Assembly (NCBI GenBank): GCA_949287105.1
Contig: CASEFE010000142.1
Coordinates: forward strand, 1-46,119
Origin: an uncultured Bacillota bacterium
Lineage (GTDB): Bacteria; Bacillota; Clostridia; Christensenellales; Borkfalkiaceae
DNA length: 46,119 nt
Direction: 5' to 3'
The notes beneath the pieces are model-generated. The model worked only from the letters and a program-made list of their open reading frames with translations, was not told the DNA's origin and made no database searches. This document shows, in pieces, positions 20,942 through 33,301 of this stretch. The stretch's first letter is position 1. Every line of letters starts with the position of its first letter. A program made the position numbers and the translations under genes.

Positions 20942-20970
20942 TTGACTAAAATCAAAAAAATATGTATAAT
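20942..20970 (+). promoter_or_regulatory. Promoter of the arginine cluster
   Basis: TTGACT (20942-20947), a 17-base spacer and TATAAT (20965-20970) give a predicted start near 20977. The ATG at 20962 lies before this point, so argG must start at 21001. Confidence 0.85.
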
Positions 20971-21000
20971 CAAGTGCAATACAGAAAAGAGGAAAGGACT

Positions 21001-22224
21001 ATGAAAAATAAAGAAATAAAAAAGGTAGTATTGGCGTACTCGGGAGGCCTTGATACATCCATTATCATTCCTTGGTTAAAAGAACATTATAATAATTGTG
21101 AAGTGATTGCTGTTTCAGCGGATGTAGGCCAGGAGAGTGAGTTGGAAGGGCTTGAAGAAAAAGCATTGAAAACAGGTGCTTCAAAATTATATATTGAAGA
21201 TTTACGGAAAGAGTTTGTAGAGGATTATATTTTCCCTACAATGAAAGCTGGTGCTGTTTACGAAAACAAATATCTTTTGGGCACATCTTTTGCTAGGCCT
21301 ATTATTGCAAAAAGAATTGTAGAGATTGCAAAACGGGAAAAGGCTGATGCGATATGCCATGGATGTACGGGAAAAGGAAATGATCAAGTTCGGTTTGAAT
21401 TGGCGATCAAAGCGTTTGCTCCGGAGATGACAATAATTGCGCCGTGGCGTATTTGGGATATAAAGAGCCGCGATGAAGAGATCGACTATGCGGAAGCGCA
21501 TAATATTCCGCTTAAGATTACGCGTGAGACAAACTATTCAAAGGATAAAAATTTGTGGCATTTGTCCCATGAGGGGTTGGATTTGGAAGATCCGGCAAAC
21601 GAGCCTAAATATGATGAGATTCTTGAACTTGGAGTGTCACCGGAAAAGGCGCCGGATAAGGCTACGTATCTTACGCTGACTTTTGAAAAGGGTATACCTG
21701 TTGCGTTGAATGGGGAGAAGGTCGGTGCTGTTGAGTTGATTGAAAAGCTGAATAAAATAGGCGGAGCGAACGGCGTAGGTATTGCGGACATGGTGGAAAA
21801 CCGTTTGGTCGGAATGAAAAGCCGTGGCGTGTATGAAACACCTGGAGGTACGATTTTATATCAGGCTCACGAATATTTGGAGATGCTTTGTCTGGATAAA
21901 GAAACGCAGCATTTCAAGCAACATGTGGGGATTCGTTTTGCTGAGCTAGTTTATAACGGACAATGGTTTACTCCGTTACGGGAAGCGTTATCTGCTTTTG
22001 TTGATAAAACGCAGGAGAATGTATCGGGCGAAGTAAAACTGAAAGTTTATAAAGGAAATATTATTTTGGCAGGAATGAAGAGCGAACATTCGTTATATAG
22101 CGAAGAAATTGCAACCTTTGGTGAAGAGGATGTTTATAACCAGCATGATGCGGAAGGGTTTATCAATTTATTCGGCTTGCCTCTCAAAGTTCGTGCTATG
22201 CTTGAAAAAAAGAAACTGAAATAA
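21001..22224 (+). CDS. argG: Argininosuccinate synthase
   Basis: ArgG joins citrulline and aspartate with ATP to give argininosuccinate, the penultimate step of arginine synthesis. The 407 aa protein has the PP-loop [18 protein letters not shown] near the start. [25 protein letters not shown] and [11 protein letters not shown]-like [16 protein letters not shown] follow. The start at 21001 is set by GGAAAGGA just upstream and by the promoter position. It leads the arginine block, 74 bases before argC. No argH is in the window, so the final lyase is encoded elsewhere. Confidence 0.97.
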
Positions 22225-22298
22225 TTTATTGCTTTAAGTTGTAAAAATTGTTCTTTGTGCAAATTAGAAAAGGTGCGAAAGTTTAATTTTAATATTTT

Positions 22299-23225
22299 AT
22301 GATTAAAGTTTTTATTGATGGAAAAGAAGGAACGACCGGATTAAAAATATTTGAACGGTTGGAAAGCCGTCAAGATTTGGAAATTTTGACGTTGCAAGAG
22401 GAGTTCCGTAAAGATAGAGATGCGCGCAGAGAAATGATCAATCAAGCCGATGTTGTTTTTCTGTGTTTGCCTGACGCCGCTTCTGTGGAAGCGGTGTCGT
22501 TATGCGAGAACGAAAACGTGAAAATTATTGATGCTTCGACGGCGCATCGAACTCATCCGGATTGGGCGTATGGGTTTCCGGAATTGTCGAGAAAACATCG
22601 GGAAAAAATACAATCTTCAAAGCGGATTGCGGTTCCTGGTTGTCATGCGAGCGGCTTTATTTCATTGGTTTATCCATTGATTGCGGGAAAAATTGTTGAG
22701 CCGGATTATCCTTTTGTATGCCATTCTGTAACTGGATACAGTGGTGGTGGAAAAAAGATGATTGCGGAATATGAAGCAGAGGATCGATCAATCGCGTTAG
22801 AGAGTCCTAGACAATACGCTTTAACACAGAAACATAAACATTTGCCGGAGATGATGTATGTGTGCGGATTGCAATATGCACCGATATTTAATCCCATTGT
22901 TGCTGATTACTTTAACGGGATGTGTGTGACAGTGCCATTGCATGCTCGTTTGATGAATAAAAAAATGGGTGTTTCGCAATTAAAATCTTATTTTGCAGAG
23001 TACTATGCGTCACAAAATTTCGTGAAAATCATAGATGAAAATGAGATATATTTGGCTGCAAATACATATGCAGGTACAAACCAAATGCGAATTGTAGTTG
23101 ACGGAAATGACGAGCGTATAGTTTTGGCTTCGGTGTTCGATAATTTGGGAAAAGGTGCATCGGGTGCGGCCGTACAGTGTATGAATATAGCATTTGGGCT
23201 GGACGAGCGAGTGTCGCTCAAATAA
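22299..23225 (+). CDS. argC: N-acetyl-gamma-glutamyl-phosphate reductase, short (type 2) form
   Basis: ArgC reduces N-acetylglutamyl phosphate with NADPH to the semialdehyde. The 308 aa protein is the short, type 2 class: it starts MIKVFIDGKEGTTGLKIFER, where the usual ArgC has a GASGYTG loop. It continues with FLCLPDAASVEA and DASTAHRTHPDWAYGFPEL. The nucleophile C115 is in VPGCHASG and SVTGYSGGGKKM follows. The common clostridial ArgC is the longer (~345 aa) type 1, so this class is notable. The ribosome site is poor: AAAAGGTG lies ~25 bases before the ATG. It is followed three bases later by the short leader of argJ. Confidence 0.93.
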   Translation: MIKVFIDGKEGTTGLKIFERLESRQDLEILTLQEEFRKDRDARREMINQADVVFLCLPDAASVEAVSLCENENVKIIDASTAHRTHPDWAYGFPELSRKHREKIQSSKRIAVPGCHASGFISLVYPLIAGKIVEPDYPFVCHSVTGYSGGGKKMIAEYEAEDRSIALESPRQYALTQKHKHLPEMMYVCGLQYAPIFNPIVADYFNGMCVTVPLHARLMNKKMGVSQLKSYFAEYYASQNFVKIIDENEIYLAANTYAGTNQMRIVVDGNDERIVLASVFDNLGKGASGAAVQCMNIAFGLDERVSLK

Positions 23226-23243
23226 TGAATGAGAGGATGGATT

Positions 23244-24458
23244 ATGAAGAAAATAGATGGCGGAGTGTGTGCACCTGTCGGTTTCAAGGCAAACGGCGTG
23301 CACTGTGGAATTCGTAAAAATAAGTTAAAACGTGATCTTTCTTTAATTGTCAGCGAAGTTCGTTGTTCGGCGGCGTGTGTTTATACGCAAAATCTTGTGA
23401 AAGGCGCACCGATTACGGTAACAAAAGAACATGTGAAAGACGGGTATGCACAAGCAATCGTATGTAACAGCGGGAATGCAAACACATGCAATACCAATGG
23501 TGTAGAAATAGCGGAAGGCATGTGCAGCTTAGTAGAAAAAAGTACCGGTATTTCCTCGCAGGATGTCGTTGTGGCATCGACGGGTGTAATCGGACAGCCC
23601 TTGTCTTTGGATCCGATCGCAGCCGGGATGGATGATCTTGTCAAAGGTTTAAGCGATATGGGCAGTTTGAATGCGGCGCAGGGCATCATGACAACAGACA
23701 CGGTCGATAAACAAGTTGCCTATTCGTTCATTTTGGATGGGAAGGAATGTAAAATCGGCGCTATAGGAAAGGGCGTTGGTATGATATGTCCCAATATGGC
23801 GACTATGTTGATTTTTATTACGACGGATGCATCGATTACATCTGAGATGTTGCAAAAAGCTCTTTCCGCTGATGTAAAAGATTCTTTTAATATGGTCAGT
23901 GTTGATGGCGATACCTCAACGAATGATATGGTCTGTGTGTTGGCAAACGGCTTAGCTGGCAACCAAACAATTACGGAGAATGGAAAAGATTTTTTGGCTT
24001 TCAGAAAAGCTTTGAATAAGGTTACAACAAATTTATGTCGCCGTATTGCGAAAGACGGCGAAGGTGCGACAAAGTTGCTTGAATGCAAAGTTACGGGTGC
24101 CAAGTCAAAAACAATAGCCAAAACAGTTGCAAAATCAGTTATCAAATCCTCTCTTTTTAAAGCGGCGATGTTCGGGGCTGATGCGAATTGGGGCAGGGTT
24201 TTGTGTGCGATCGGTTATGCCGGTGCAAAAGTAGATATTTCCAAAATTGACGTTGATTTTAAAAGTCGAATGGGAATGCTGGCAGTATGTCGTAACGGCA
24301 GCGGCGTGTCTTTTTCTGAGGAAGAAGCAAAAAAGATATTATCCGAAGATGAGATTGATGTTTTAATCAATTTGAATGACGGGAATGGAAAGGCAACGGC
24401 ATGGGGCTGTGACCTGACCTATGAATATGTTAAAATCAATGGCGATTACAGGACCTGA
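23244..24458 (+). CDS. argJ: Ornithine acetyltransferase / N-acetylglutamate synthase
   Basis: ArgJ moves the acetyl group from N-acetylornithine to glutamate, closing the acetyl cycle, and in bifunctional forms also makes N-acetylglutamate from acetyl-CoA. The 404 aa protein contains the self-cleavage site KGVGMICPNMATMLIF. Processing before T187 should yield alpha and beta chains with Thr as nucleophile. NSGNANTC and STGVIGQPL in the alpha part and FGADANWGRVLCAIGYAG in the beta part are conserved. The start at 23244 is preferred over 23229 because GAGAGG precedes it by eight bases. Whether it is mono- or bifunctional cannot be read from the sequence. No separate argA or argE is in the window. 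Confidence 0.96.
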   Translation: MKKIDGGVCAPVGFKANGVHCGIRKNKLKRDLSLIVSEVRCSAACVYTQNLVKGAPITVTKEHVKDGYAQAIVCNSGNANTCNTNGVEIAEGMCSLVEKSTGISSQDVVVASTGVIGQPLSLDPIAAGMDDLVKGLSDMGSLNAAQGIMTTDTVDKQVAYSFILDGKECKIGAIGKGVGMICPNMATMLIFITTDASITSEMLQKALSADVKDSFNMVSVDGDTSTNDMVCVLANGLAGNQTITENGKDFLAFRKALNKVTTNLCRRIAKDGEGATKLLECKVTGAKSKTIAKTVAKSVIKSSLFKAAMFGADANWGRVLCAIGYAGAKVDISKIDVDFKSRMGMLAVCRNGSGVSFSEEEAKKILSEDEIDVLINLNDGNGKATAWGCDLTYEYVKINGDYRT

Positions 24459-24472
24459 GAGGAAGTTTTGTC

Positions 24473-25345
24473 ATGAACGATAAGATAAAGAATGAAAAAC
24501 AGTTTCGCGCGCAGGTATTGATTGAGGCACTCCCTTATATACAAGATTATAACGGAAAAGTTGTTGTAATCAAATATGGTGGTAACGCCATGATCAACGA
24601 AGAGTTGAAGATGTCGGTCATGCGCGATATCGTTTTGTTAAATTTAATCGGGGTAAAAGTGGTTCTCGTGCACGGAGGCGGGCCGGAAATATCCGAAATG
24701 CTGAAAAAAATCGGTAAACAATCTGTCTTTATTGACGGACTGCGGTACACAGATGAGGAAACAGCTGAAATTGTCAGGATGGTCCTCGCAGGAAAAATTA
24801 ATAAATCGCTCGTGAACCTACTGGAAAGTATAGGCGGCAAGGCTTTGGGATTGTGCGGTATCGACGGGCATATGATGAAATGTTGCAAAGAGAATGAGAA
24901 GTTGGGATATGTTGGCAAAATTGTAGAAATGAATACAAAAGTTATAACCGACGCGCTGGACGCCGGTTATATTCCGGTTGTTTCTACTGTGGGGTATGAC
25001 GATGAGGGGCATATTTACAATGTTAATGCTGATACAGCTTCTGCTGTGATTGCGGGGGCGCTCGGGGCAACGAGTCTCATATTGATGACGGATATTGCCG
25101 GAGTTTTGCGTGATAAAAATGATGAAAACAGCCTGATAGAAAAAATTTATGTCAGCGAAATTCCTTCTCTTGTAAAACAAGGAATTATTTCGGGAGGTAT
25201 GATTCCTAAGATTGACTGTTGCCGCGAGGCGATTCGCCGCGGGGTTAAAAAGGTATTTATTATTGATGGGCGCGTTGCTCATTCTATTCTGGTGGAGACC
25301 CTTTCTGATCAAGGAATAGGGACAATGTTTGTGAATGAAGACTGA
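24473..25345 (+). CDS. argB: Acetylglutamate kinase
   Basis: ArgB phosphorylates N-acetylglutamate, the committed and often arginine-inhibited step. The 290 aa protein has the amino-acid-kinase blocks VVIKYGGNAMI, VLVHGGGPEIS, RYTDEETAEIV, NVNADTASAVIAGAL, LMTDIAGVL and SGGMIPKIDCC. The N-terminal extension of ~25 residues before VVVIKYGG (QFRAQVLIEALPYIQDYNGK) matches the helix seen in arginine-sensitive hexameric enzymes, so feedback inhibition is likely. AGAGGAAG precedes the ATG. The gene starts 15 bases after argJ and its stop codon lies within a terminator hairpin. Confidence 0.97.
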   Translation: MNDKIKNEKQFRAQVLIEALPYIQDYNGKVVVIKYGGNAMINEELKMSVMRDIVLLNLIGVKVVLVHGGGPEISEMLKKIGKQSVFIDGLRYTDEETAEIVRMVLAGKINKSLVNLLESIGGKALGLCGIDGHMMKCCKENEKLGYVGKIVEMNTKVITDALDAGYIPVVSTVGYDDEGHIYNVNADTASAVIAGALGATSLILMTDIAGVLRDKNDENSLIEKIYVSEIPSLVKQGIISGGMIPKIDCCREAIRRGVKKVFIIDGRVAHSILVETLSDQGIGTMFVNED

Positions 25346-25368
25346 TTTTTCAATCGGTCTTTTTTTTC
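25338..25368 (+). terminator. Intrinsic terminator overlapping the argB stop
   Basis: AAGACTGATT (25338-25347) pairs with AATCGGTCTT (25352-25361, one wobble) and is followed by a run of T to 25368. The 5' arm contains the argB stop codon, so a terminating ribosome would cover the hairpin. That links termination to argB translation. Confidence 0.85.
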
Positions 25369-25398
25369 GGGCTGGCAATAAAATGGATTCCTAAATTA

Positions 25399-25427
25399 TT
25401 GCAATCGGCTTTGTTTTATGATAAAAT
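25399..25427 (+). promoter_or_regulatory. Promoter of argD-argF-carAB
   Basis: TTGCAA (25399-25404, 4/6), a 17-base spacer and TAAAAT (25422-25427, 5/6) follow the argB terminator. It gives the second half of the arginine cluster its own start. Confidence 0.55.
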
Positions 25428-25445
25428 AGATAAAATAGGTGAATT

Positions 25446-26612
25446 ATGAGTTTTACAGAAACAAAGAAATTGGATGAAAAATATATAGCGGGTACATATA
25501 AGCGGTTTGAGACTGAAATATTTGAAGGGCAGGGCGCTACGCTTTATTCGGAAGACGGAAAGAAGTATATTGATTTCGGGAGCGGAATTGCAGTCAATTC
25601 TTTTGGGGTGAACGACCAGATCTGGAAAGATGCCGTGATAGCACAGTTAAATAAAGTACAACATGCAAGCAATTTATATTACACGCGTCCGCAGGCAGAA
25701 CTTGCAAAGCTTTTGTGTGAGCGAACAGGCGCAAAGAAAGTTTTCTTTTCGAATTCCGGGGCGGAAGCGAATGAATGCGCCATTAAAGCCGCTCGGAAAT
25801 ATTCTTTTGATAAATATGGCGAAGGACGTTATGAAATTGTAACGTTAAAAAATTCGTTCCATGGCCGGACTATGGCTACCTTGACAGCGACGGGGCAGGA
25901 CGCAATGCATAAATATTTTATGCCGTTCCTGGATGGCTTTTTTTATGCCGAACCTACTTATGAAGGAGTAAGAAAGGTTTGTTCGAAAAAGACCTGTGCG
26001 GTCATGTTGGAACTTGTTCAGGGGGAAGGCGGTGTTCGTCCTTTGGAAATTGAACAGGTAAAAGAAATTGAATTGTTCTGCAAAAAGAACGATATTCTTC
26101 TTATAATCGATGAAGTGCAAACGGGAAACGGACGGACAGGAAAACTTTACGCCTTTGAATATTATGGGATTCAACCGGACATAGTGAGTACCGCAAAAGG
26201 CCTTGCGGGCGGTTTACCGCTTGGCGCAACGATGCTGTTTGAAAAATGTGAGAAGGTTTTAGGTGCGGGAGATCACGGATCAACATTCGGTGGTAATCCG
26301 GTTGCATGTGCCGGCGCAATCAGTATATTGAAACGACTGGATAAAGAACTTTTATTGGAAGTTCAAGGAAAGAGTGCGTATATGTTTACGCATCTTGGCC
26401 GAATTAAAAATGTAATAAAAGTAACGGGGCTGGGGCTGATGCTTGGCTTGGAGATTACAAAAAATGCGCGAGAAGTAGCAGAAGAATGTTTAAGGCGGGG
26501 CTTGATTGTATTGACAGCCAAAGACAAGATCCGACTACTGCCTCCTCTTACGATCAAAAAGGATGAAATAGATACAGGTTTGAAAATATTGAATGAGGTG
26601 ATATCCGAATGA
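25446..26612 (+). CDS. argD: Acetylornithine aminotransferase
   Basis: ArgD is a class III PLP aminotransferase that turns N-acetylglutamate semialdehyde into N-acetylornithine. The 388 aa protein has YIDFGSGIAVNSFG and FFSNSGAEANECAIKAAR (phosphate-binding). SFHGRTMATLTATGQ follows, then LLIIDEVQTGNGRTGKLYAF (PLP-ring Asp). The Schiff-base Lys is in VSTAKGLAGGLPLGA, and GDHGSTFGGNPVACAGA is also present. Gamma-aminobutyrate and ornithine aminotransferases share this fold, but the arg context decides the call. AGGTG precedes the ATG. Its stop overlaps the argF start (ATGA). Confidence 0.96.
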   Translation: MSFTETKKLDEKYIAGTYKRFETEIFEGQGATLYSEDGKKYIDFGSGIAVNSFGVNDQIWKDAVIAQLNKVQHASNLYYTRPQAELAKLLCERTGAKKVFFSNSGAEANECAIKAARKYSFDKYGEGRYEIVTLKNSFHGRTMATLTATGQDAMHKYFMPFLDGFFYAEPTYEGVRKVCSKKTCAVMLELVQGEGGVRPLEIEQVKEIELFCKKNDILLIIDEVQTGNGRTGKLYAFEYYGIQPDIVSTAKGLAGGLPLGATMLFEKCEKVLGAGDHGSTFGGNPVACAGAISILKRLDKELLLEVQGKSAYMFTHLGRIKNVIKVTGLGLMLGLEITKNAREVAEECLRRGLIVLTAKDKIRLLPPLTIKKDEIDTGLKILNEVISE

Positions 26613-27511
26613 AACATCTATTAAAATTGGCTGATTTGAGTTCTGAAGAGATATTCGGGATATTGAATCTTGCCGATCAGTTGAAGTATGAACGGAAGAA
26701 CAATATTGCGCATCAGCATTTGAAGGGAAAAAAATTAGGGATGATTTTTTCCAAATCATCTACACGTACCCGCGTCAGCTTTGAGGTGGGTATGAATGAA
26801 CTTGGCGGATATGCACTCTTTTTGTCGGACAGAGATCTGCAGCTTGGAAGAGGAGAACCGATTAAAGATACGGCGCGAGTTTTGTCGCGGTATCTCGACG
26901 GAATCATGATTCGTACATTTGCCCAAAAAGATGTGGAAGATTTGGCGGAATACGGTTCTATTCCCATAATCAATGGCTTGACCGACTATTGTCATCCTTG
27001 CCAGGTACTGGCTGATTTGATGACTATCCGCGAGTACAAAGGCAGCTTCAAAGGATTGAAATTGTGTTTTGTCGGAGACGGAAACAATATGGCAAATTCC
27101 TTGATTGTCGGCGGAATTAAAATGGGAATGGAAGTTGCGGTTGCCTGTCCCGAGAATTATCGTCCGGATGCGGGTATTATCGAATGGGCAGAAGCAAACG
27201 GGAAATTATTGATAACATCCGACATGAAAAAAGCGGCGACGGGGGCGGATGTGCTCTATACGGATGTATGGGCATCTATGGGGCAGGAAGGCGAAAAGAA
27301 AGAACGGGAAAAGGTGTTCAAAAATTATTGTGTGAATGCAGATCTGATGTCGGTTGCCAAGACGGATGCGATGGTGTTGCATTGTCTGCCGGCGCATCGG
27401 GGCGAAGAAATAACGGCCGATGTGTTTGAAGCGCACGCGGAAGAAATCTTCGATGAAGCGGAAAACAGGCTTCATGCACAAAAAGCGGTCCTTGTAAAAT
27501 TGCTCAAATAA
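26609..27511 (+). CDS. argF: Ornithine carbamoyltransferase
   Basis: ArgF joins carbamoyl phosphate and ornithine to citrulline. The 300 aa protein has the carbamoyl-phosphate loop SKSSTRTRVSFEVGM, then MIRTFAQKDVEDLA, DYCHPCQVLADLMT, FVGDGNNMANSL and MVLHCLPAHRGEEITADVF (ornithine SMG-loop counterpart and HCLP). It lacks the features of aspartate carbamoyltransferase. It overlaps argD by four bases, with GAGGTGAT as ribosome site inside argD. Next come carA and carB, which make its substrate, so carbamoyl phosphate production and use are co-transcribed. Confidence 0.97.
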   Translation: MKHLLKLADLSSEEIFGILNLADQLKYERKNNIAHQHLKGKKLGMIFSKSSTRTRVSFEVGMNELGGYALFLSDRDLQLGRGEPIKDTARVLSRYLDGIMIRTFAQKDVEDLAEYGSIPIINGLTDYCHPCQVLADLMTIREYKGSFKGLKLCFVGDGNNMANSLIVGGIKMGMEVAVACPENYRPDAGIIEWAEANGKLLITSDMKKAATGADVLYTDVWASMGQEGEKKEREKVFKNYCVNADLMSVAKTDAMVLHCLPAHRGEEITADVFEAHAEEIFDEAENRLHAQKAVLVKLLK

Positions 27512-27540
27512 AAAATATTATACATTCGGATAGGTAAAAT

Positions 27541-28620
27541 ATGAACGGAGAAAAAGTTTATCTTACGCTGCAGAACGGAAAGATTTTTGAGGGTAAAAGG
27601 TTTGGCGCCACGGGCGAAGTGTGCGGAGAACTTGTTTTTACAACGGGTATGACGGGGTATATCGAGACGTTGACTGATCCCAGTTACTATGGTCAGATTG
27701 TTATTCAGACGTTTCCGCTGATAGGAAACTACGGAATGATACTTTCGGACAGAGAAAGTAAGAAACCATATTTATCTGGATATATTGTACGAGAATATTG
27801 TAAAGAACCCTCAAACTTTCGATGCGAAGAGAAAATCGATGATTATTTGAAAGAGCAAAACGTCATCGGAATTTACGGAATCGATACAAGGGAATTAACA
27901 AAGACGGTACGCGAAGCGGGTGTCATGAATGCGGTTATTTCATCTCGACCGATAAGCGATCTATCCTCGATTGCAAATTTCTCGATTCGCGATGCGGTAC
28001 GTGCGTGCACTTGTCCGAAAGTAAAGGTGTATGAACAAGAGAATGCAAAAAGGACTGTGGTTCTTTGGGATTTTGGTGCCAAAGAGAATATTGTGCGCGA
28101 GTTGCAGAAGAGAGGCAACCGAGTTATTCGAGTTCCTGCGTATTTTACTGCAGAACAAATAATGGATTTACATCCGGACGGGGTGATGTTGACCAATGGT
28201 CCCGGAGACCCCGCAGAAAACACAGAAATAATTGAAAATATAAGGAAACTTGCCGGAAAGCTTCCGATTTTCGGTATTTGTTTAGGACATCAGTTATTTG
28301 CTTTGGCGATGGGCGGAAAGACGAAGAAAATGAAATACGGGCATCGAGGGGCTAACCAACCGGTCAAGGAATTGAAGACGGGAACCGTTTATATTTCAAG
28401 CCAAAATCACGGATATGAAGTTATCGCCGAATCGATAAAAGGTGTAGGAGAGCTTAGTTTCATCAATGCAAACGATAACACTTGTGAAGGAGTTGAATAT
28501 CCTGAACTGAATGCGTTTACGGTACAGTTCCACCCGGAAGCGTGTGCGGGGCCGCTGGATGCGAGGGATCTTTTCGATAAATTTATGACGATGATGGACG
28601 GAGGAAAAACAAATGCCTAA
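27541..28620 (+). CDS. carA: Carbamoyl phosphate synthase small (glutaminase) subunit
   Basis: CarA hydrolyses glutamine and channels ammonia to CarB. The 359 aa protein has the N-terminal CarA domain (LTLQNGKIFEGKRFG, ending in IYGIDTRELTKTVREAG). The class I glutamine amidotransferase domain follows: MLTNGPGDPAENTE, nucleophile C247 in FGICLGHQLFALAMG, and catalytic His and Glu in FTVQFHPEACAGP. It starts 29 bases after argF with a modest GGATAGG site, and overlaps carB by eight bases, with the carB ribosome site (GGAGG) inside it. The position in the arg block suggests a copy devoted to arginine; a separate pyrimidine copy may exist elsewhere. Confidence 0.97.
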   Translation: MNGEKVYLTLQNGKIFEGKRFGATGEVCGELVFTTGMTGYIETLTDPSYYGQIVIQTFPLIGNYGMILSDRESKKPYLSGYIVREYCKEPSNFRCEEKIDDYLKEQNVIGIYGIDTRELTKTVREAGVMNAVISSRPISDLSSIANFSIRDAVRACTCPKVKVYEQENAKRTVVLWDFGAKENIVRELQKRGNRVIRVPAYFTAEQIMDLHPDGVMLTNGPGDPAENTEIIENIRKLAGKLPIFGICLGHQLFALAMGGKTKKMKYGHRGANQPVKELKTGTVYISSQNHGYEVIAESIKGVGELSFINANDNTCEGVEYPELNAFTVQFHPEACAGPLDARDLFDKFMTMMDGGKTNA

Positions 28621-31600
28621 AAAGAGTGAAATTAAAAAAGTACTTGTCATCGGATCCGGTCCTATCGTTATTGGACAAGCGGCTGAGTTTGACTATGCAG
28701 GAGCACAGGCTTGCCGTGTTTTGAAAGATGCGGGGGTGAATGTTGTGTTGTGCAACTCTAACCCGGCTACAATAATGACGGACAGTGCGCTTGCGGATGA
28801 AATCTATCTGGAACCGCTTACTTTGGAGACGATCAAAAGAATTATAATCAAAGAGCGTCCGGATAGTTTATTGGCGTCTCTCGGAGGTCAAACAGGTTTG
28901 ACTCTCGGTTGTCAGCTTGCCAAAGAAGGTTTTTTAGATAAGTACGGCGTAAAACTTATCGGAACAAAAGTTGATGCCATAGATCGCGCGGAAGATAGGG
29001 AATTATTCAAGGAAACCATGCAAAAGATCGGGCAGCCGGTTGTTCCTTCGGATATAGCATATACTGTGGAAGAATGCGTTGCCGTGGCTGATAAAATCGG
29101 ATATCCGGTCATTATTCGTCCTGCGTTTACATTGGGTGGCGCAGGCGGCGGGGTCGCTTATAACGAGGAAGAACTCAGAACTATTTCGCACAATGGCTTG
29201 ATGCTTTCCCCGATTACGCAGGTTTTGGTAGAAAAATATATATATGGCTGGAAAGAAATTGAATTTGAAGTATTGAGAGATGGGGCCGGAAATGTAATCA
29301 CTGTATGTTCGATGGAAAATTTTGATCCGGTGGGAATTCATACCGGAGATTCTATCGTTATTGCACCGGCAGTGACGTTGTCTGACAAAGAATATCAGAT
29401 GTTACGCAGCGCATCTTTGAAAATTATAACGGAATTGGGGATCGAAGGCGGTTGCAACTGTCAGTTTGCCTTGAATCCTGATTCTTTTGAATATGCAGTC
29501 ATTGAGGTCAATCCTCGTGTTTCTCGATCTTCGGCTCTTGCATCCAAGGCTACGGGTTATCCGATTGCCAAAGTTGCCACGAAAATTGCGCTCGGCTATA
29601 CCTTGGACGAGATCAAAAACGATGTTACGGGCGAAACGTTTGCTTGCTTTGAACCGACAATTGACTATGTAGTCATTAAATTGCCGAAATGGCCGTTCGA
29701 TAAATTTCTATATGCGAAGCGTGAGCTGGGAACGCGAATGAAAGCTACGGGTGAAGTGATGGCGATCGGCGTAAGCTTTGAAATGGCGATCATGAAAGCT
29801 GTGCGCGGAGCGGAAATTTCGCTTTCTTCCTTAAATTTAGATAAATATGAAGGAAAAGATCTTCGGGAAGAATTGAAAAAATTATCCGATGAAAGGTTGT
29901 TTACGGTATTTGCAGCGCTGAAAGCGGGAATAACAGTTGATGAAATTTTCAATATTACCAAGATCGATCGTTGGTTTTTGAATAAGCTTTTGAATCTTGT
30001 GAAGTTTGAGGAAAAGCTGAAAACGGAAAAACTAACCCGTGGATTGTACGAAGAAGGCAAGCGGTTGGGGTATCCGGATAAGGAATTGGAGAAAATTTCC
30101 GGACAAACTATTCCTTATCATAAAAAAGCAGTTTATAAAATGGTTGATACATGTGCGGCTGAATTTTCGGCGGCTACGCCTTATTTCTATTCTACCTATG
30201 ATGAGGCAGCGCATGATGAAGCAACTCCTTTTATTAAAAACAGTACGAAAAAGCGTATCGTAGTAATCGGATCGGGCCCTATTCGTATCGGACAGGGAAT
30301 TGAATTTGACTATTCATCGGTACATTGCGTCTGGACACTGAAAAAGCTTGGCTACGAAGTTATCATTATTAACAACAATCCGGAAACGGTTTCGACGGAT
30401 TTTGATACGGCTGACAGGCTGTATTTTGAGCCTCTTACTCCGGAAGATGTACAGAATGTACTTGACAAAGAGAAACCTTACGGGGTTGTAATCACGTTTG
30501 GCGGACAGACGGCGATTAAACTATGCAACTATTTGGATAAAAAGGGAGTGAGAATTCTCGGAACATCTGCAGACAGCGTGGATATGGCTGAAGATCGTGA
30601 GCGTTTTGATGAACTTTTGGAGCGCTTTGAGATAAGTCGTCCCAAGGGATTGACGGTCATGACAAAAGAAGAAGCGCTTGCCGCGGCAGAACGCTTGGGC
30701 TATCCTGTATTGCTTCGTCCGTCTTATGTAATCGGCGGGCAAAATATGACAATTGCATTTACGGAGAGTGATATTTCACGTTATATGGATGTCATTCTTG
30801 CGCAACATATCGAAAATCCGGTGCTTTGCGATAAATACCTGATGGGGCAGGAGCTTGAAGTAGACGTAATATGTGACGGAAAAGATGTATTGATTCCGGG
30901 AATCATGCAGCATATTGAGCGTGCGGGCGTTCACAGCGGTGACTCGATAGCTGTTTATCCGCCGTATAATCTGAGCGATCTGATGTTGGATAAGATCATT
31001 GAATGTTCTACTCAGCTTGCGCTTTCCTTAAAAACAAAGGGGCTAATCAATATACAATTCCTCGTATATCATAACGAATTGTATGTAATTGAAGTCAATC
31101 CCCGCGCGTCGCGGACGATTCCGTATATTTCCAAAGTTACAGGCGTACCGATGGTAGAGCTCGCAACGAAAATTATGGTTGGCGCAAAGCTTAAAAAGCT
31201 TGGATATGGAACAGGACTTTATAAATCTTCTCCGTATGTGGCCGTTAAGGTTCCGGTATTCTCTTACGAAAAATTGAATGACGTAAATTCTCAGCTCGGA
31301 CCGGAAATGAAATCCACAGGGGAAGTTCTTGGTCTTGGAAAAACCATTGAAGAAGCGCTGTTTAAGGGACTGATTTCGGCAGGATTCAAACTTTGCCATC
31401 CTACAAAGCAACGGGAAGTTGGCGTTTATTTTACAATCAATGATCAGGATAAATTTGAAATTTTGGGGCTTGCTAAAAAATTCAGCGATCTTGGATTAAA
31501 AATTTATGCAACCAAAGGTACGGCTGATACTATCCGTACGCTCGGAATCGACGTTACAACAGTGGATCGTCTTTCACAGAGTGATGAAATTCTGACATTG

Positions 31601-32659
31601 ATGGAAGACGGAAAGATAGATTATATTGTTTATACGGGCAAGACGGATATGAACTCCATTGGTGATTATATTCGTTTGCATCATCGTGCGGTATTGCTAG
31701 GTATTACAACGCTGACTTCGCTGGATACAGCCAATGCTCTTGCGGACATCATAGCCAGCCGTTTCAATGAAGACAATACAGAGTTGGTAGATATCAATAA
31801 TCTGCGTACTGAACGGACCAAACTGAAGTTTGTGAAGATGCAAAGTTGCGGAAACGATTATATCTTCTTTGATAATATGGACGGTAAGATTACTTGTCCC
31901 GAATCGCTCGCAATCAATTTTGTTGACCGTCATTTCGGAATTGGCGGAGACGGGATCACTTTGATTGAAAAATCGGATGTGGCCGATGCAAAGATGCGGA
32001 TTTTCAATCAGGACGGAAGCGAAGGCGTTATGGCGGGGAACTCTATACGCTGCGTTGCAAAGTATTTATTCGATAACGGGTTTGTTAAGGATAAGAATAT
32101 AACCATAGAAACGCTTTCGGGAATAAAGAAACTGACGCTGTATACATTTAATGGAAAAGTCAGTGCGGTCAGCGTTGATATGGGAAAGGCTGTTTTAGAT
32201 GGAGAAAGGATACCTTCAACATTAAAGGGTGATACGGTGGTAGATAGACCGATCAATGTAGGAGGACAGGAGTACCGTGTAACGCTCGTCAATGTTGGGA
32301 ACCCGCATTGTGTAGTTTTTTGCGATAAAGTAGATGCTGTTGATGTGCCGGGTGTAGGGCCTGCGTTTGAATATTCTTCCTTCTTTCCTCGTCGGGTGAA
32401 TACAGAGTTTGTACGCGTGGTAAATGACAAAACATTAAAGATGCGCGTTTGGGAACGTGGTAACGGAGAAACGCTTGCATGCGGAACGGGGGCTGCTGCT
32501 TCTGTCGTAGCGGCGGTGCTTAACGGATATTGTAAAAAGGACGAAGATATTACGGTGAAAGTCCGGGGCGGGGATTTGATCGTACGATACAGTTCGGACG
32601 GATCAGTTCTTCTTACGGGAAGTGCCAAGCAAGTGTTCGAAGGAACAGTGGAATTTTAA
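28613..32659 (+). CDS. carB: CarB-DapF fusion: carbamoyl phosphate synthase large subunit joined to diaminopimelate epimerase
   Basis: This single uninterrupted frame of 1348 aa holds two enzymes. Residues 1 to ~1065 are a complete CarB: two ATP-grasp halves, starting [21 protein letters not shown] and, near residue 545, [19 protein letters not shown]. The allosteric MGS-like domain ends near ADIIASRF. After a ~15-residue linker, residues ~1071-1348 are a full-length DapF: [36 protein letters not shown], and [17 protein letters not shown] with catalytic C1290. The other catalytic Cys position is Ala (A1141 in VMAGNSIRC). CarB makes carbamoyl phosphate with CarA; DapF interconverts LL- and meso-diaminopimelate. 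GGAGG precedes the start, inside carA. I see no stop, start or ribosome site at the junction. Confidence 0.93.
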   Translation: [1348 protein letters not shown]

Positions 32660-32680: not shown

Positions 32681-33301
32681 ATGCAAGAAGTTTTTTATGA
32701 GGAAAGTGCAAGCCTTTTGAATGAAAAGCCGGCAAAATTTCGATACAATTTATTGACTATTGTCGGGGTAATTTGTATTCTTTCCGCTGTCTTTGCTATA
32801 ATTATGATCTGGATGGCATTCAGTGTACCGGTGAATGAAGAAGATATGCAATCTTTTGTCTTAAAAGATTTCTTGCTTTCGCTTCTGCCTCTGTTTATCT
32901 TGTTTGTTCTGATGGTTGTTGGGGCTGTTTTGTTGTTCAAAAAAAGGCACTCTGTATATGTAAGTTATGATTACACGTTTGTCACCGGAGAACTTCGAAT
33001 TTGCAAAGTGATCCATAACAGGAAACGTAAATTGTTATACAGGCTCTCCGATGAGCGGTTGATAAAAATCGGGCGTGTCGGTTCAGAATCTTATAAGAAG
33101 CTGAAAGCTTCTCCGGACAACAAAGAAGATATTCTTACACCGAATGAGGAAGCGGCGGAAGGAAAAGAAATTTTCTATATTCAGGCATCGACAAATGTAG
33201 GGAAAAAAATTCTTGTCCTTGAGTGCAGACAACAGATGATATCTACAATTTTAAGATATATGAACAAAAATATTCTTGAATCGGAATTTAACAGAAGATG
33301 A
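32681..33301 (+). CDS. Two-helix membrane protein of unknown function (DUF6106-like?)
   Basis: This 206 aa protein has two membrane helices (about residues 24-46 and 66-88). A soluble domain follows with YVSYDYTFVTGELRICKVIHNRKRKLLYRL, which continues LSDERLIKIGRVGSESY. This layout, two helices then F-(E/D)-Y-T-x-x-x-G-E-L-x-I-x-K-(V/I), resembles a family of clostridial proteins I recall as DUF6106, but I cannot confirm it. The function is unknown. GGAG precedes the start, 21 bases after carB-dapF. Its stop overlaps the start of the cysteine desulfurase gene (ATGA), so it is translated together with the thiolation genes. Confidence 0.75.
   Translation: MQEVFYEESASLLNEKPAKFRYNLLTIVGVICILSAVFAIIMIWMAFSVPVNEEDMQSFVLKDFLLSLLPLFILFVLMVVGAVLLFKKRHSVYVSYDYTFVTGELRICKVIHNRKRKLLYRLSDERLIKIGRVGSESYKKLKASPDNKEDILTPNEEAAEGKEIFYIQASTNVGKKILVLECRQQMISTILRYMNKNILESEFNRR

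Follow-up and report, generated by a model that had tools for sequence, protein, structure and literature searches.

A carbamoyl-phosphate synthase large subunit fused to a DapF-like domain that has probably lost epimerase activity in Candidatus Borkfalkia

The analysed window, a 46,119-nucleotide stretch of DNA from a genome of Candidatus Borkfalkia (placed in Christensenellales by NCBI), carries an arginine operon with the gene order argG-argC-argJ-argB-argD-argF-carA-carB::dapF (20962-32659; Table 1). The last gene of this operon is a single open frame (28613-32659, forward strand) of 1348 residues without internal stops. GGAGG at 28600-28604 precedes its ATG start codon at a distance of 8 bases, and the start of the frame shares 8 bases with the end of carA. 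The NCBIfam equivalog model for CarB (TIGR01369/NF003671) matches residues 1-1050 with 1457.6 bits (cut-off 599), and that for DapF (TIGR00652) matches residues 1072-1346 with 266.7 bits (cut-off 114.65); Pfam concurs with the layout of CarB followed by DapF (PF01678). Together with the presence of the same join in other genomes, these results confirm what an earlier note on this DNA had read from the sequence, namely that CarB and DapF, both full length, form one polypeptide of 1348 residues. The 11 Pfam families and the 25 listed NCBIfam families (out of 44) include no joint CarB+DapF model. Immediately 3′ of the fusion (32681-33301) lies a 206-aa ORF without a Pfam match, which is found at the same position in many relatives; gene names in the relatives are BLAST labels taken from the window.

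Table 1. Coordinates of the arginine operon genes and of the parts of the carB::dapF fusion in the window.
Feature	Position	Strand	Basis
argG	20962-22224	+	NCBIfam model above cut-off
argC	22299-23225	+	NCBIfam model above cut-off
argJ	23229-24458	+	NCBIfam model above cut-off
argB	24473-25345	+	NCBIfam model above cut-off
argD	25446-26612	+	NCBIfam model above cut-off
argF	26609-27511	+	NCBIfam model above cut-off
carA (small subunit)	27541-28620	+	TIGR01368, 434.8 bits
CarB part (glutamine-dependent carbamoyl-phosphate synthase large subunit), residues 1-1065	28613-31807	+	NF003671/TIGR01369, residues 1-1050
CarB C-terminal tail (11 residues)	31775-31807	+	similar tails in fused rows
Linker TERTKL, CarB tail to DapF	31808-31825	+	sequence
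DapF-like domain (putative pseudo-epimerase)	31826-32656	+	TIGR00652, AlphaFold2 model, TM-scores
GCG (Ala) at the catalytic Cys73 position	32033-32035	+	Ala in 26/26 Borkfalkia rows, 24 genomes
TGC (Cys), second catalytic Cys217, kept	32480-32482	+	
Stop codon of carB::dapF	32657-32659	+	

The junction spans 17 residues, the last of which is encoded by CTG at 31823, and is followed by K-F-V-K-M of DapF. It consists of CarB's own tail of 11 residues and the 6 residues TERTKL. NTELVDIN is part of that tail, which recurs with small variation in front of DapF in the listed fused rows from other families, and the linker is therefore about 6 residues long rather than about 15 as first estimated. 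Three in-frame codons near the junction could in principle serve as starts (TTG 31784, GTG 31832 and ATG 31838), but inspection by eye revealed no clear Shine-Dalgarno sequence within 20 bases upstream of any of them. An internal start for the DapF half thus appears unlikely, in agreement with the initial observation that DapF here begins CTG-K-F and lacks a ribosome-binding site.

We then considered how widely the join is distributed. A fused domain with CarB in front is present in 22 of the 24 sampled congeners, some of them cut by contig ends; the two genomes without it are G007, with a completeness of 81%, and G015, with 75%. The fusion recurs within the order (396 genomes sampled). In the class sample of 391 genomes, at least 58 have one stop-free match running from CarB into DapF, at least 54 of these lying outside the order (one counted genome, G441, has a contig that ends inside DapF). 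The phylum sample of 398 genomes yielded at least 19 fused genomes, namely the window's own, one from the class (G508) and 17 labelled as outside it; fused counts in the order, class and phylum samples are all lower bounds. CarB-DapF proteins, which the earlier note had proposed to look for in other genomes, are thus present in many families of Clostridia and in some lineages beyond, and were mapped on trees. The source bin is fragmented (176 contigs, 81.6% complete), which might raise the suspicion of an assembly or annotation artefact such as a missed stop or a chimeric contig. However, the same join occurs in the 22 congeners and in four single-contig genomes (G057, G604, G968 and G992). 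Because of this conservation, chance and artefact are excluded, the probability of the latter being negligible, and it is very unlikely that residues 1060 to 1076 hide a stop or a frameshift.

In the phylogeny of CarB (66 rows), a single clade with support of 100 unites the 56 fused rows with G329; G329 is labelled as unfused in this tree, but its frame actually runs into DapF and is cut by a contig end. The DapF tree (196 rows) requires 4 changes between the fused and stand-alone states. From these trees, in which the sampled fused CarBs form one clade, the fusion is old and probably of single origin. Loss of a stop codon within an operon, suggested earlier as the origin, fits these data: in G461 and G680 the two genes share a reading frame, and only one stop codon separates carB from dapF. 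The CarBs of these genomes are only 40-42% identical to that of the window over the junction query, but a layout from which such a fusion could arise therefore exists. Departures from the fused state were also observed. In two genomes of family f4, G121 and G203 (loci L427 and L426), CarB ends at its own tail and lacks DapF, and the CarB of G203 shares 82% identity with a fused CarB of the same genus group, that of G335. Apparently, these are natural deletions of the DapF module, which can thus be dispensable. G019 and G021 encode two fused copies each (L030, L029), one of those in G021 with a TAA inside the DapF domain; recent decay, two strains sharing a bin or a mistake in assembly could explain this. 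Separately, one stand-alone dapF (L404, G679:C48) groups inside the fused clade; it has the end of carA on one side and, as judged by eye, a CTP-synthase-like start on the other, carB being absent from this interval, and is possibly a DapF freed from a fusion.

DapF residues are given in H. influenzae numbering and were mapped by motif; these numbers are in line with those in PMC4227774 and PMC8225329. In the DapF half of the window Cys73 is replaced by alanine and Cys217 is kept. The same alanine is found in all 26 Borkfalkia rows (24 genomes plus two second copies), and Cys217 is retained wherever it is readable. Across 143 fused genomes, a table that leaves out the second copies of G019 and G021, 50, G029 among them, have both cysteines, while 93 have lost Cys73, Cys217 or both. 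Cys73 is missing from 91 of these 93 altered domains (Ala in 68, Gly in 12, Ser in 11), whereas Cys217 is kept in 79 of the 92 that are readable and gone in 13. All 40 aligned stand-alone DapFs have both cysteines. In Corynebacterium glutamicum DapF, for which contacts with diaminopimelate (DAP) were mapped, the C83A and C221A mutants are reported to be almost inactive and N11 is also essential (PMC5296763); more generally, single-cysteine mutants of DapF-type enzymes are described as having almost no epimerase or racemase activity (PMC5296763, PMC8225329). Given these published mutants, the DapF half of the window has probably lost epimerase activity, and because Cys73 is alanine we do not file the domain as an active DapF. 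A clade of altered DapFs comprises 59 rows from 18 families (SH-aLRT 99), and the trees require 9 to 11 changes in all, which means one large old loss plus several independent ones.

The source genome has other routes to DAP. It encodes, besides the fused domain, a second, stand-alone DapF with both cysteines (G000:C65:8416-9225) and a match to meso-DAP dehydrogenase (Ddh), an enzyme that bypasses DapF. The Ddh variant pathway is listed in PMC9026213. Thus, of the two genes whose duplication had been considered at the outset, dapF has a second copy, and carB has a single match. A stand-alone match, 52-58% identical to the fused domain, is present in 22 of 24 congeners, which rules out contamination as its source; G009 and G017 have the fused match only. 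In the source genome (L002:35-3339, G000:C65), the stand-alone dapF (L002:1042-1863) is preceded by a GXGXG (glutamate-synthase-like) fragment and an ANTAR-domain regulator and followed by a glutamine amidotransferase/phosphoribosyltransferase gene, a nitrogen-flavoured neighbourhood. At another locus (L403), a similar ORF end was seen by eye before the stand-alone dapF.

Among genomes with an altered fused domain, a stand-alone DapF is present in 72 and absent from 19, with 2 unscored, as compared to 6, 42 and 2, respectively, among those with an intact one. These scores come from single-protein searches or a profile, by which genes may be overlooked where a genome is incomplete; G030 and G218 owe their positive score to fragments, and 4 of the 143 genomes have no score and stand outside the 139. 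Thirteen of the 19 altered genomes without a stand-alone DapF have a Ddh-family match, so that another DAP route exists in 85 of the 91 scored altered genomes. The remaining six, in which neither a stand-alone DapF nor a Ddh match was found, are G301, G385, G515, G545, G758 and G780, two of them 65% complete. Ddh, sought in 79 genomes, is also present in 5 of 13 tested intact genomes with a single DapF and in 17 of 42 tested altered genomes with a stand-alone DapF. The association between cysteine loss and a stand-alone DapF gives a Fisher p of 2e-14, which is not independent evidence: it rests largely on one deep loss, and a tree-aware independent-pairs test found only 5 pairs on supported branches, too few for significance.

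Despite the loss of Cys73, the altered domain remains under constraint. Using 22 fused and 21 stand-alone Borkfalkia genes (the fused gene of G005 was dropped by the motif filter), we obtained a dN of 0.106 and 85% amino acid identity for fused DapF versus 0.244 and 71% for stand-alone DapF, the fused value being lower in all 136 shared genome pairs. Median dN/dS is 0.087 versus 0.161; for these medians only, pairs whose dS reached 2.5 were excluded. Relative to CarB the picture is different. The ratio dN(DapF)/dN(CarB) is 4.2 in Borkfalkia, 4.3 and 5.8 in its sister genera g20 and g18, and 4.0 in family f76, as compared to 1.9-2.8 in five groups with intact fusions; the altered group f24-g50 is an exception at 2.2. 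Constraint on altered domains is thus mostly weaker than in intact fusions, with about twice the rate relative to CarB in Borkfalkia, g20, g18 and f76. As in pseudoenzymes, a catalytic residue has been lost and purifying selection continues, if less strongly than in the intact fusions. Of 39 positions conserved at 97% or more in intact fused and stand-alone DapFs, Cys73 is kept in 2% of altered domains, while the other 38 are kept in 76-100%. Seven side chains that contact DAP (N64, N75, N157, N190, E208, R209 and T/S219) are all retained in 74 of the 93 altered domains, and in Borkfalkia every readable residue at these positions is the expected one. By contrast, the pocket has drifted in genus g18, where all 8 domains have a changed N190 and 6 of them a changed R209. 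N11 is changed in 10 of the 93.

The AlphaFold2 model of the DapF domain has a mean pLDDT of 91.4, and its highest TM-scores, 0.90-0.92, are to DapF structures with bound DAP analogues (0.92 to 9mro). The structure matches also place it in a fold superfamily that includes dehydratases and an isomerase. A longer model, covering residues 541-1348, has a confident DapF part but a pTM of 0.50, the arrangement of the domains being predicted without confidence; pLDDT falls below 50 at residues 1055-1065 (model residues 515-525), just before the linker. Thus, the domain resembles DapF (TIGR00652, PF01678) in sequence family score, two-domain fold and the DAP-contact residues named in PMC5296763, but differs from it in the replacement of Cys73, the fusion behind CarB and the location in an arginine operon.

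The CarB half belongs to the CarB family (TIGR01369) and differs from it in the extra C-terminal domain. It scores above the curated cut-off across its full length and has both ATP-grasp halves and the oligomerisation and MGS domains; carA adjoins it. Structures of E. coli CarB (1bxr and others) align with residues 1-1019, and the ATP-grasp motifs are conserved in the displayed part of this alignment. The single CarB of the source genome is the only carbamoyl-phosphate synthase (CPSase) large subunit found there, as against two DapFs, and in family f1 (Borkfalkia and sister genera) all 24 fused genomes tested have a single CarB match. Among 12 further f1 genomes for which no fused match had been listed, 6 gave no match to CarB and 4 encode a CarB of a different type, with 41-43% identity across the C-terminal half. 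The other 2 turned out to be fused after all, namely G347 and, truncated by its contig ends, G329. CarB was sought in 1, 65 and 57 genomes in three separate searches. The six f1 genomes without a CarB match (G066, G126, G156, G217, G239 and G418; 97-99% complete) are perhaps arginine and pyrimidine auxotrophs.

What, then, is the DapF half for? The supposition that both halves are working enzymes, with the fusion channelling or co-regulating two live activities and the Ala73 domain retaining useful epimerase activity, draws on the kept substrate contacts and on relatives with intact fusions in which no other DapF was found (42 of the 139 scored genomes). For the source organism we reject it: Cys73 is an acid/base residue, the equivalent alanine mutants are almost dead (PMC5296763), and a two-cysteine stand-alone DapF as well as a Ddh match are present in the genome, so that this reading is highly improbable. 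For the same reasons, the initially proposed coupling of two active assemblies via shared ATP or nitrogen is not the best interpretation. A somewhat less remote, still improbable alternative is new chemistry, in which Cys217 alone would act on DAP or a related diamino acid in a one-base reaction, for instance an elimination or an exchange. The frequent retention of Cys217, including in all readable Borkfalkia rows, and the dehydratases and isomerase of the fold superfamily are compatible with it, but the near inactivity of single-cysteine mutants, the loss of Cys217 in the 13 altered domains and the lack of any partner gene for a new pathway seen in the operon argue against it.

More serious, though on balance unlikely, is the possibility that the domain is a trapped relic without a job, to which CarB has adapted (through folding or C-terminal capping) such that truncation is disfavoured, the pocket being kept for the stability of the fold. 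Constraint relaxed relative to CarB, persistence of CarB without the domain in G121 and G203, the stop inside one G021 copy and the pocket drift in g18 would all be expected of such a relic. On the other hand, the Borkfalkia fused DapF evolves more slowly than its stand-alone counterpart in every pair, retention across the 59-row clade is long for a passenger, and the contact residues have outlived the catalytic base. We therefore consider it probable, from the sequence comparisons, that the DapF half is a pseudoenzyme module of the arginine CPSase with a structural or regulatory role, possibly that of a DAP sensor. The narrower version of this reading, a DAP-sensing CPSase in which the pocket is kept and the base is lost, yielding a built-in allosteric sensor for the level of DAP, is put forward tentatively, as one that may well turn out to be wrong.

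The following scenario may be envisaged for the pseudoenzyme module. An old end-to-end fusion would have joined carB and dapF into an ancestrally bifunctional protein. Many descendants keep both cysteines of DapF, with no other DapF found, and are for that reason presumably bifunctional still. In the lineage of the window, DapF chemistry would have become redundant with the stand-alone DapF and Ddh; the catalytic base has been lost through the change of Cys73 to Ala, and the altered domain would have been retained as a folded, non-catalytic module of the arginine-operon CPSase. Most likely the module dimerises or packs in a way that determines how CarAB assembles or how stable it is; the earlier suggestion that dimerisation of DapF ties the CarAB and DapF assemblies together is possible in this regard. 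Since the DAP-contact residues are preserved, the module may also act as a binding site for DAP, through which carbamoyl-phosphate synthesis would be informed of how much of this cell-wall and lysine precursor is present. Inactive enzymes serving other enzymes have precedents; in yeast Ura2, for instance, a DHOase domain is inactive, comparable to the altered DapF half. E. coli DapF(C73&217A) still binds and stimulates RppH, an effect of DapF on a second enzyme for which its cysteines are not needed, although the two are separate proteins, the client enzyme differs from CPSase and the DapF of E. coli works as an epimerase as well (PMC4227774). Similarly, in Pseudomonas aeruginosa an inactive dihydroorotase chain, an enzyme copy kept for an enzyme of the carbamoyl-phosphate pathway, is needed for ATCase activity, but it belongs to another family with another pathway logic, and is a separate chain serving ATCase rather than CPSase (PMC7053772).

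CPSase is a branch-point enzyme whose control is well studied, and we know of no connection between the arginine/pyrimidine and DAP pathways. No description of a CarB-DapF fusion was found among the open-access PMC titles and abstract openings listed, which does not prove that it is unpublished, and the available parts of PMC9026213 and PMC8225329 do not mention one. If our interpretation is true, the fusion would link these pathways, and a widespread CPSase with a repeatedly deactivated extra enzyme domain would represent a new kind of control or assembly; if the module is indeed a DAP sensor, the output of carbamoyl phosphate for arginine and pyrimidines would be tied to the diaminopimelate level. 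In metabolic models, the fused DapF of altered lineages should not count as an epimerase. A single phylum contains the domain in intact, dead and deleted form, and so offers a natural experiment on how an enzyme becomes a pseudoenzyme after fusion.
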